NCBI GenBank assembly: GCA_020161265.1
Contig: JAIUOC010000001.1
Coordinates: 868,001 to 932,000, forward strand
Direction of reading: 5' to 3'
Source: Chloroflexota bacterium
GTDB taxonomy: Bacteria > Chloroflexota > Chloroflexia > Chloroflexales > Herpetosiphonaceae
Length of the DNA stretch: 64,000 nucleotides
Shown: positions 2,844 to 7,726 of the stretch, one piece after another
Position numbering within the stretch: position 1 is the stretch's first letter
How the letters are laid out: the number at the start of each line of letters is the position of its first letter
Translations under genes and position numbers: made by a program
The notes under the pieces: generated by a model
The model's database searches: none
The model's input: the letters and a program-made list of their open reading frames with translations, nothing else
What the model was told of the DNA's origin: nothing

Positions 2844-3248
2844 ATGACAATGTACTCACGCCAGATTGATGCGCAGACCCGTACTGCGCAATTCTCCTAT
2901 GATCCACGTGGGATCTTATGGATCATCTCGCTCCCTGCAGCCCAAGAATCGCCTGCTGACGCGACTGAAAATGTAGCAGTCATGCAACGGTTCTTGGCGA
3001 ATCGGCCAAATAGTGCGGTTATTCTCGATATGCGAGCCTTAGAAGCGATCGATCGCGAAGCTCGCCATATTTACACTAGCGGCGATGGTAAGTTCCCCGC
3101 GCGAGCCTTAGCGATCGTGGTCGAATCGGCAACCAGCCGCATCACTGGCAATCTCTATATGACGATTAGCCGTGGGAGTGGCCGCCCAACCCGTATGTTT
3201 CAAACTCCTGCCGATGCTGAAATTTGGGCGGTTAATCAACTTAACTAA
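2844..3248 (+). CDS. STAS/SpoIIAA-like (DUF7793-type) small protein
   Basis: A 134-residue soluble protein. The core ILDMRALEAIDREARHIY followed by RALAIVVESATSRITGNLYM, and a closing FQTPADAEIWA, resembles a family of STAS/SEC14-like domains found mostly in Bacteroidetes and other gliding bacteria. The first half has the alternating strand pattern of a STAS fold. The role in these organisms is unknown; STAS domains usually mediate regulatory protein contacts. A GGAG lies about 13 bases upstream of the ATG; the in-frame ATG two codons later is equally possible. A terminator-like hairpin follows 19 bases after the stop, suggesting a single-gene transcript. Confidence 0.5.
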   Translation: MTMYSRQIDAQTRTAQFSYDPRGILWIISLPAAQESPADATENVAVMQRFLANRPNSAVILDMRALEAIDREARHIYTSGDGKFPARALAIVVESATSRITGNLYMTISRGSGRPTRMFQTPADAEIWAVNQLN

Positions 3249-3293: not shown

Positions 3294-3487
3294 TTTAGTG
3301 GTTAAAGCGCCACTATTTCTGGCCTCAAACTAGGATTCGGCAAGGGGTAATCATCCGCGAGGAACCTAAAGAAACACAAAGAATACTAATTCATCAATCC
3401 AGAAGTATAGAGGATTTAAGGGTGACAAATGATTTTAGTTCTTGGGCATGGGGTGATAACCCAAGCTCAGATCTTCTCGTGGCCTGA

Positions 3488-3616
3488 TTAACTGATATTG
3501 GTTTCGATCGCCAAGCGTTGATCGGTATAATGAGCGAGGGTGCGCAACGTCCGAACGGCCACTACGTGCAGGGCATTCGTGGCATGAAGCTTGACAGCGC
3601 TGCTAGAATAGGCCAT
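3488..3616 (-). pseudogene. Short ORF, possible gene remnant (transposase-like debris)
   Basis: A 42-codon ORF starting MAYSSSAVKLHATNALHVVA and ending in TAA. There is no clear ribosome binding site and no recognisable full domain. The sequence reads like a piece of a larger protein rather than a complete small protein; a decayed transposase is one possibility. I do not recognise the family. It could also be chance. Confidence 0.2.
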
Positions 3617-3769
3617 AGTCAATCCTTAGGATGGTCACATGTCAATCAATCTGGCATATCTAGTTTACCATAATTTTCTTGCTTACAAATTGAAACAACT
3701 CCGTGGCATGGGTTATCGCTTGCATCCTGCTGCTGGTGTAGCCTGCTTTCGAAAAGTGGACACCTAGGT

Positions 3770-6700
3770 ATTTCAATCAACGCCCCGAGGAAGCGGGGAT
3801 TAAAACACGCGCAACCTCGTCGATCTTGGCGAACAGCAGGCATTTCAATCAACGCCCCGAGGAAGAGGGGATTAAAACAAAATGAAAAAGCTCTTCTCCT
3901 AATGGATATTGACACATTTCAATCAACGCCCCGAGGAAGAGGGGTTTAAAACCATCAGGACCTCGAAAGATCCCTGGGTGTCCAGGAACATTTCAATCAA
4001 CACCCCGAGGAAGAGGGGATTAAAACCTATAGCAGACAAAATATGTCTGGCACGAACTGGCCATTTCAATCAACGCCCCGAGGAAGAGGGGATTAAAACC
4101 CAGAGTGGGCTTTTTTTCGCAAATCGCCTTGAAGCTAATCTCAATCAATGCCCCGAGGAAGAGGGGATTAAAACCAGAATAGCGCAGCCAATTCTGCGCC
4201 ATCCAGTCAATCTCAATCAATGCCCCGAGGAAGAGGGGATTAAAACTTTGTGGTTTACTCGAAGAATTTGCGTCATTACTAATGAATCTCAATCAATGCC
4301 CCGAGGAAGAGGGGATTAAAACGAAGATGTTGGTTAACAGTAAATGGGAAATCAATTGAATTTCAATCAACGCCCCGAGGAAGAGGGGATTAAAACTCAA
4401 GGGCAGTATCGATTTCGATTATTAATTTGCCATTTCAATCAACGCCCCGAGGAAGCGGGGATTAAAACCAATGGAAGGTTGCCAATAGTCTTGCGGAAGT
4501 AGAGATTTCAATCAACGCCCCGAGGAAGCGGGGATTAAAACGCGAGAATGATTACAGGAACCCAAAAGGTTTTGCCTGTTATTTCAATCAACGCCCCGAG
4601 GAAGAGGGGATTAAAACCTCGTTCCAGAGAACGCCATTGCTGTCGTTATCTTTCATTTCAATCAACGCCCCGAGGAAGAGGGGATTAAAACCTCGTTCCC
4701 GCTGAAGCCGAATCCGACGACGTGTGCTATTTCAATCAACGCCCCGAGGAAGCGGGGATTAAAACCTCGTTCCCGCTGAAGCCGAATCCGACGACGTGTG
4801 CTATTTCAATCAACGCCCCGAGGAAGCGGGGATTAAAACACAAAGGCCATCTTTTTCTCCTTTACTGAAAGAGCTTATTTCAATCAACGCCCCGAGGAAG
4901 CGGGGATTAAAACTCCAGAATCACTGGTTGGTAACCGGGGGATTCTGGATTATTTCAATCAACGCCCCGAGGAAGAGGGGATTAAAACGCGATAGGCCTG
5001 TCCGATGTGCGTATTTGTTCATGATGAATCTCAATCAATGCCCCGAGGAAGAGGGGATTAAAACGCAAATGATTGATCTCCACGAATTGCATTTCCCATA
5101 AAATCTCAATCAATGCCCCGAGGAAGAGGGGATTAAAACGCGCAGCCAGCAAAGTTTGATTGGCTGGCTGCGCAATCTCAATCAATGCCCCGAGGAAGAG
5201 GGGATTAAAACCATGGAACACATCTCCCCGCTCGATTTGTCCAAGCTCATTTCAATCAACGCCCCGAGGAAGAGGGGATTAAAACGCTAAGGAAGCCACA
5301 GTCCCAGGACCATATTTTTCGAATTTCAATCAACGCCCCGAGGAAGCGGGGATTAAAACAAAACTGTCACCAGAGACGTTGGCTTTGATCACACGACATT
5401 TCAATCAACGCCCCGAGGAAGCGGGGATTAAAACCCTCAGGAGTCTCAATTTGGGCGCCATTGGTGGCTTCAATTTCAATCAACGCCCCGAGGAAGCGGG
5501 GATTAAAACATTAATCTTTTATTTTTTAGGTAATGCACCAAGTAGAATTTCAATCAACGCCCCGAGGAAGCGGGGATTAAAACCAATTGCCTTCCTCAAT
5601 CACGCGGCGAAAGAATTATTTCAATCAACGCCCCGAGGAAGAGGGGATTAAAACGGAAGTTGACTCAGAAGAGGTAATCTGTCTGGAATCGGCATCTCAA
5701 TCAACGCCCCGAGGAAGAGGGGATTAAAACCATATGATTGCTAAGAGTATAGCTCTGCCTGGCACATCTCAATCAACGCCCCGAGGAAGCGGGGATTAAA
5801 ACAGAATTGACCATCAAACATTAGTTGTACTGATTGGATCTCAATCAACGCCCCGAGGAAGCGGGGATTAAAACCAGGGTGACCGCATTGTCGTTGCCGA
5901 TGGGGAAGCTATTTCAATCAACGCCCCGAGGAAGAGGGGATTAAAACCAATCCGATCACGAGGTTTCCTCCATGATAGTAGGGTCATTTCAATCAACGCC
6001 CCGAGGAAGAGGGGATTAAAACAGACAAGTTTCGTATCGCAATGGGTCGAGCGCCATCAACCATTTCAATCAACGCCCCGAGGAAGAGGGGATTAAAACT
6101 TACTGGGACCCAGAAGATTTTGCCTGTTAGTTTAGTTATTTCAATCAACGCCCCGAGGAAGAGGGGATTAAAACAGACTATAGATGCGTAAGGCATCGGT
6201 AGCCCGTAAACTGTGGATTTCAATCAACGCCCCGAGGAAGAGGGGATTAAAACAATAAGGGCCATAAAGGCAAAAAAATTGAAAGGTTTTTTATTTCAAT
6301 CAACGCCCCGAGGAAGAGGGGATTAAAACGAAAATCATTACCCCATTAGTTGGAGTATTAGTAAATCCATTTCAATCAACGCCCCGAGGAAGAGGGGATT
6401 AAAACGGTTGAAACATTATTTAGCTGGCGCTACCGCAATGGGATTTCAATCAACGCCCCGAGGAAGAGGGGATTAAAACAAATAAACGATATCCCAGCAA
6501 TCAATTTTTTGGCATCTCAATCAACGCCCCGAGGAAGAGGGGATTAAAACAAAACCGTTAAAATCGACCGGTGGAAGAACCTGTCCATCTCAATCAACGC
6601 CCCGAGGAAGAGGGGATTAAAACATTCAGCATTGATTTTATTGCGATCATTAATTGAAATCTCAATCAACGCCCCGAGGAAGAGGGGATTAAAACCCACT

Positions 6701-7726
6701 GGATCATCGTGCCGCTTGAAGCTACGATGATCTCAATCAACGCCCCGAGGAAGAGGGGATTAAAACGCGCGGAAGATTGGTCCAGCGGCTATAATAGCCA
6801 TAATCTCAATCAACGCCCCGAGGAAGAGGGGATTAAAACTGGCCAAACGGGGCCATATCAACGCTGTAGCGGGGCATATCTCAATCAACGCCCCGAGGAA
6901 GAGGGGATTAAAACTTTGGCTCAACCGGAAAGTCAATGTACGCAATCGTATATTTCAATCAACGCCCCGAGGAAGCGGGGATTAAAACCATAAGATCGCT
7001 GGCTGATGTTGGCGCCATAATCGGATTTCAATCAACGCCCCGAGGAAGAGGGGATTAAAACCAATAGAATGGCCGATTCCTAATAGTGATAGGTAATGCA
7101 TTTCAATCAACGCCCCGAGGAAGAGGGGATTAAAACACTACTGTTGTGCAATGGGAGAGGGAAATGCCATTCCATTTCAATCAACGCCCCGAGGAAGAGG
7201 GGATTAAAACTAAACTACTAATAAAGAAAACTAACGCATCTAAAATCATTTCAATCAACGCCCCGAGGAAGAGGGGATTAAAACTATGTTGAGGGTCGTC
7301 ACGGTGTTCGTGGAAAGGTCGAATTTCAATCAACGCCCCGAGGAAGAGGGGATTAAAACATGTTCACTGTCACCAAGAATGGGTGGCGACTCAGCCCTTC
7401 GGATTTCAATCAACGCCCCGAGGAAGAGGGGATTAAAACTCCATTCATCAGCTTATATAAATCAGCATTATATAGTGTATTTCAATCAACGCCCCGAGGA
7501 AGAGGGGATTAAAACCAATAGCGGCAGTATCTCAGAGCGATCAAGTGCAAATTTCAATCAACGCCCCGAGGAAGAGGGGATTAAAACGCGATAACGCGAT
7601 TAATGTAGGCAAAGTGTTCGGGCAACATTTCAATCAACGCCCCGAGGAAGAGGGGATTAAAACACCTAGTCCTTTAAGATCTTCTCTCGGGACTAGTTGC
7701 GTATTTCAATCAACGCCCCGAGGAAG
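3770..7726 (-). CRISPR. CRISPR array, 53 full repeats plus one truncated, 53 spacers
   Basis: The 37-base repeat reads on the plus strand as AT[T/C]TCAATCAA[C/T]GCCCC, then GAGGAAG[A/C]GGGG, then ATTAAAAC. Spacers are 34-43 bases. The read-through of CCCC...GGGG forms a 4-bp stem, extended to 5 bp in the C variant. In the opposite orientation the repeat starts GTTTTAATCCCC and ends GATTGAAAT. This resembles the ATTGAAA(C/G) ends common in type I and type III arrays, so the minus strand is the more likely transcribed strand. The subtype cannot be fixed because no cas gene lies in the window. Repeats 3 and 4 carry private point changes; the last unit (7703-7726) stops after 24 bases. Spacers 13 and 14 are identical. 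Apparent reading frames inside the array are artefacts of the repeat. Confidence 0.98.

Follow-up and report, generated by a model that had tools for sequence, protein, structure and literature searches.

Two spacers from homologous, diverged sequences in an orphaned CRISPR array of a Herpetosiphonaceae bacterium

Spacers 11 and 32 of CRISPR array A in a member of the Herpetosiphonaceae (Chloroflexota) were confirmed as separate acquisitions from homologous, diverged sequences. The array lies in a window of 64,000 nucleotides, which is the whole stretch of DNA that was analysed; the features discussed are listed in Table 1. One locus would have been sampled twice, in two foreign elements (phage or plasmid) infecting Herpetosiphon that belong to one lineage but have diverged. 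A joint explanation, in which diverged foreign elements were sampled on two occasions in the era of an RT and Cas1 module, the array is used in trans by a type III-A system and the target is encoded on the minus strand, is regarded as fairly likely. The pair is real but ordinary in kind. It is a further case of repeated immunisation against related, diverging forms of a single element, and is mainly useful as a probe for Herpetosiphon phages. It is outweighed in interest by its setting, an RT-Cas1 module that is intact in sister species and deleted here.

Table 1. Array A, selected spacers and the adjoining sequence, in window coordinates
Feature	Coordinates	Strand	Remarks
Module scar	3319..3527	.	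relatives carry an RT + Cas1 + WYL adaptation module at this site
CRISPR leader	3528..3769	+	conserved with the syntenic array of two Herpetosiphon relatives (alignment, blastn)
CRISPR array A	3770..7726	+	53 full 37-nt repeats, 53 spacers, leader at the low-coordinate end
Spacer 11 (39 nt)	4542..4580	+	overlap with spacer 32 at 4552-4580
Spacers 13 and 14	4692..4802	+	exact duplicate, contrast case to 11/32
Spacer 16	4914..4951	+	9-bp foldback from the first base
Spacer 19	5140..5174	+	28/29 match to a conserved chromosomal H. aurantiacus gene, antisense; 11-bp foldback
Spacer 25	5584..5617	+	30-32/34 nt match to an ORF of 470-550 aa
Spacer 32 (38 nt)	6100..6137	+	overlap with spacer 11 at 6100-6128

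Array A and the homologous spacers

The stretch at 3770-7726 has the near-identical repeats, the unique spacers of similar size, the leader and the degenerate terminal repeat of a CRISPR array. The commonest form of the repeat is ATTTCAATCAACGCCCCGAGGAAGAGGGGATTAAAAC, and variants are present; the terminal repeat is truncated (24 nt, 7703-7726). Approximately 240 nt 5' of the first repeat, which starts at 3770, are kept in two relatives, as seen in the alignment. Because this upstream sequence is conserved and the degenerate end is found at the high coordinates, the leader was placed on the left and the crRNAs were read as plus-strand sequence. Array A is the sole array with its repeat in the genome of this organism. 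The closest flanking genes have no match to a defence model on either side, and no effector genes adjoin the array. The H. aurantiacus DSM 785 plasmid CP000876.1 also gave matches to the array stretch.

Recomputation of the array returned the numbers and coordinates that the first-pass annotation had given for spacers 11 and 32, together with the 29-base segment with four differences that it had described as shared between them. The overlap is exactly 29 nt (bases 11-39 of spacer 11 against bases 1-29 of spacer 32, an offset of 10), and 25/29 positions are identical. The mismatches are located at 4556/6104, 4559/6107, 4565/6113 and 4569/6117, a divergence of 14% over the 29 nt. The further claim, that the two are independent acquisitions from homologous, diverged sequences and not a duplicated spacer, also held, given ends that are offset by 10 nt and four mismatches. 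A duplicated spacer has the same ends and the same sequence, as is found for spacers 13 and 14 and not for 11 and 32; the offset of the ends rules out duplication for the latter.

Scored without gaps (+1 for a match, -1.5 for a mismatch), the pair reaches 19. The next non-identical pair in array A has 11.5, and in 12 dinucleotide-shuffled arrays the top-scoring pair of each stood at 10-12. A chance similarity of two unrelated spacers is statistically refuted by a score of 19 against at most 12 in the shuffles, and its probability is negligible. Twenty spacers lie between 11 and 32, and the two acquisitions were therefore separated in time. This interval bears indirectly on the alternative that both spacers stem from two copies, either a repeat or paralogues, within one element that was sampled twice. 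Two short spacers cannot tell paralogy from orthology, and nothing direct speaks against such copies; with the acquisitions set apart by the intervening spacers they are considered quite unlikely, and two diverged members of one lineage are preferred as the source.

Six Herpetosiphon genomes, with 22 array stretches, supplied a genus set of 1,946 distinct spacers, among which the 11/32 pair has a BLAST E of 2e-5 per query. Fifteen spacer pairs reached E<=2e-4 in this set, three of them exact duplicates; shuffled sets gave 0-1. With about a dozen pairs of its type in the genus, 11/32 is not special; such pairs recur in the ordinary course of repeated immunisation. Homologous pairs on the same strand and on opposite strands stand at 15:4 (E<=0.002, duplicates left out, 2-3 chance pairs expected). 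A third homologous spacer in the relative G005 (L090) was rejected, as its match ends within the spacer and the codons are not conserved. Elsewhere in G005 (L089, minus-strand coordinates 728 and 874) the same 29 nt occur in two nearby spacers in opposite orientation. This relative is a very large spacer archive, with approximately 480 spacers of the array A repeat family in four stretches (L088-L091) and approximately 560 of the III-A family.

Source, coding strand and type III-A use

No protospacer of spacers 11 and 32 was found in IMG/VR, INPHARED, PLSDB, the GTDB contigs or 158 Chloroflexia genomes. Degenerate peptide patterns, both forward and antisense, were run against IMG/VR, the GTDB contigs, the 158 Chloroflexia genomes and the organism's own family; INPHARED and PLSDB were searched by tblastn and blastn, and PHROGs were also searched. 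Because these searches required near-exact peptide conservation, absence of the target does not follow from their outcome. Every match examined was judged to be due to chance. Four of the eight pattern matches in IMG/VR appear to be out-of-frame readings (L013, L016, L017 and L018) of what we take to be a terminase-like TRWH motif, and other matches in IMG/VR were dismissed with at most 27/48 bases shared. Real genes with TGTQ[KN][VIM][LF]PV in frame exist, for example one for a PlsC-like acyltransferase with ITGTQKVFPVSAV (L129); this protein was rejected as the target family because the choice would be post hoc.

The plus-strand frame TGTQK[V/I]LPV, which the first-pass annotation had put forward as coding and as a handle for finding the target, is open, three of the differences being synonymous and the fourth V/I, and had been computed correctly. 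It is neither significant nor unique. When four random substitutions were placed on the 29-mer, 47% of trials kept some open frame with no more than one replacement, and 17% kept two or more such frames. The minus-strand frame TGK[T/I]FWVPV is likewise open; three of its changes are synonymous and one is a replacement (T/I). It ties with the plus frame, since both frames place their third codon positions on the same bases. Given this chance rate and this tie, identification of the coding frame and strand by the codon pattern was not supported. A codon-usage likelihood trained on the genes of the window gave an LLR of -0.38 for the merged 11/32 sequence and did not separate the strands.

The genome of this organism contains one type III-A operon (L055), consisting of Csm1-5, two Csx1, Cas6 and Cas1. 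Array B, which accompanies it, holds 168 spacers or more; the genome further has one I-A-like operon, with 87 spacers. A 267-aa ORF within the III-A operon (L055 7220-8023, between Csm5 and Csx1) has no PADLOC or Pfam match. Array A has a repeat of the type III format. The repeats of arrays A and B both end in GGGGATTAAAAC, and their last 12 bases, which include the 8-nt crRNA handle ATTAAAAC, are identical. With Csm1-5 and Cas6 present in the genome and a crRNA handle equal to that of the csm-adjoining array, use of the array A crRNAs by type III-A in trans is the most likely arrangement. Cas6 and Csm encoded elsewhere in the genome would process these crRNAs, and each of them would recognise the mRNA complementary to its spacer. 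In type III interference the crRNA must be complementary to transcripts, and a PAM is not required (PMC7515739); as a type III target, the 11/32 protospacers would therefore not be expected to have a PAM, and the guides of an array serving type III-A would be complementary to mRNA. Such complementarity was seen for spacers 25 and 19.

The target ORF of spacer 25 was found in five Herpetosiphon genomes (L109-L113), in one of them on an H. aurantiacus plasmid, and the crRNA is antisense to it in all five. Its sequence includes MARLANTANHGFQALDPAAV, and the product is presumably methyltransferase-like. Spacer 19 (loci L108 2424-2458 and L114 2310-2344) is antisense in 2/2 genomes, and both of the G005 spacer pairs with a discriminating codon pattern are minus-strand. 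All four independent readable cases (spacers 25 and 19 and the two G005 pairs) are antisense. The mean coding log-ratio shows a weak minus-strand lean for 534 array-A spacers (Wilcoxon p=0.005) and for 1,263 array-B spacers (p=6e-5). The excess of same-strand over opposite-strand homologous pairs (15:4) also counts towards the antisense reading.

The antisense reading is favoured because the repeat 3' end is that of the III-A array and all resolvable cases are antisense, and a target of spacers 11 and 32 coded on the minus strand is considered likely. The protein would contain KLTGK[T/I]FWVPVIIL rather than TGTQK[V/I]LPV, and the peptide handle proposed earlier probably sits on the wrong strand. 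Alternatively, both spacers came from a plus-strand-coding gene with ARMITGTQK[V/I]LPVSLV, possibly an N-terminus. Such a gene agrees with the open frame, its three synonymous changes and the conservative V/I exchange, which slightly favours the plus strand as T/I is less conservative, and with the occurrence of the TGTQ pattern in frame in real genes such as the PlsC-like one. The antisense frame fits equally, however, type III logic and the resolvable cases are antisense, and the frame of the motif occurrences in genome contigs was selected by the search pattern itself. The plus-strand gene is considered unlikely, if a serious contender, and the minus-strand target is retained.

The RT and Cas1 module and the foldback spacers

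Between the gene at window positions 2844-3248 and the array, the relatives G002 and G005 carry an RT of 431 or 432 aa, a Cas1 of 333 aa and a WYL-domain gene, the WYL domain having been scanned in G002 only. The module loci in relatives are L122 13184-19173, L099 3257-6631 and L123 10306-17114. The RT contains RVT_1 and has its best match in the PADLOC CRISPR-RT model (6e-88); it falls below the cut-off against the group II RT model, and Pfam returned no match for a maturase domain. None of the scanned ORFs adjoining the module, which have 490, 213, 511 and 326 aa in G002 and 268 aa in G005, matched a PADLOC model. In the window no RT or Cas1 is present between the flanking genes and array A, and the scar holds remnants of the downstream side of the module (approximately 3431-3515) and the start of the WYL gene (from 3521). 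The relatives' RT has no match in this genome, and a third Cas1 was not found in it besides those of the III-A and I-A operons.

Array A is orphaned, the module being absent here and present in relatives. It is probably now a frozen archive whose spacers date from the time with the module; they would have been inserted while the locus had its own RT and Cas1, since deleted. The III-A Cas1 acting in trans is a possible alternative means of their acquisition.

Spacers 16 and 19 are near-perfect hairpins. Spacer 19 matches the H. aurantiacus gene from base 7 onward, and its bases 1-6 match at 0/6 positions and are the exact inverted complement of its own 3' end. A gene on the organism's own chromosome gives a partial match (26/35). 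Spacer 19 is thus a direct piece of evidence, with the pattern to be expected had the 3' end of the sense strand folded back on a 5-bp match and then been extended, as in snapback by an RT; foldback by a DNA polymerase and a hairpin naturally present in a variant of the source gene are possible origins as well.

In a test chosen after spacer 19 was seen, inverted repeats starting at the first base with a stem of >=7 bp were counted in the 534 spacers of the array-A family (window and L088-L091 of G005). Seven were found against 0.65 in shuffles (Poisson p=6e-6), an approximately tenfold enrichment in the RT-linked array family; inverted repeats at the last base numbered 2 against 1.0, which is no 3' enrichment. 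Array B has 5 first-base foldbacks against 2.4 in shuffles, and the contrast between arrays A and B is modest (Fisher p=0.004 for stem 6, 0.05 for stem 7 and 0.03 for stem 8). No source was found within the family for two further foldback spacers.

The enrichment of 5' foldbacks is at most suggestive of acquisition from RNA. That RT and Cas1 wrote array A, spacers 11 and 32 included, from RNA before they were lost, with the foldback excess and spacer 19 as the fingerprint of snapback priming, is put forward tentatively and as improbable. If true, the 5' foldback signature may reveal RT-dependent acquisition from sequence alone, in natural arrays and without experiments. A narrower proposal is that 11 and 32 were copied from an RNA phage by the lost module, which would explain why no DNA source was found. 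The RT and Cas1 that relatives have next to the syntenic array, and the 5' foldback signature of the array A family, are in keeping with it, and RT-linked spacers, whose sources are an open question, are notoriously hard to trace (PMC5513706). Those of known target are, however, mostly directed against DNA phages (PMC5513706), spacer 25 matches a gene of a DNA-borne element and spacer 19 a chromosomal gene, and most spacers in any array are without a match. An RNA phage is considered very unlikely, and the lineage of phages or plasmids infecting Herpetosiphon remains the preferred source.

Comparison with known systems

CRISPR arrays commonly contain redundant spacers directed at variants of a single phage locus. 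Spacers 11 and 32 differ from these in that no source was found and in their divergence of 14% over 29 nt; they are alike in being two offset spacers of homologous sequence with mismatches. Compared with the organism's own III-A locus (L055), array A differs in the 5' part of the repeat, in its separate location and in having no effector beside it. The two are alike in a 37-nt repeat ending in GGGGATTAAAAC and in the crRNA 5' handle ATTAAAAC.

Separate RT and Cas1 genes are known from RT-CRISPR clade 9, in the Chloroflexi (PMC5541045), and the module is therefore not new. A CRISPR-neighbouring RT of H. aurantiacus (GI 159898445), which may not be the RT of the module, was put in the group II introns (PMC5541045). 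The locus described here differs from clade 9 (PMC5541045) in the deletion of the module, and the relatives are without recognised effector genes beside it; the likeness, which is one of gene arrangement and not tree-based, is that in G002 and G005 the syntenic array has next to it an RT ORF that is distinct from, but close to, a Cas1 ORF.

Snapback synthesis is an activity of the group II intron-like G2L4 RT (PMC12337344), and for Cas6-RT-Cas1 a homology of 1-2 bp is enough for priming (PMC8102632). Those results are biochemistry on other enzymes, whereas the present reading is drawn from spacer sequences; an activity of this kind would account for spacers that repeat their own 3' end in inverted form at the 5' end.
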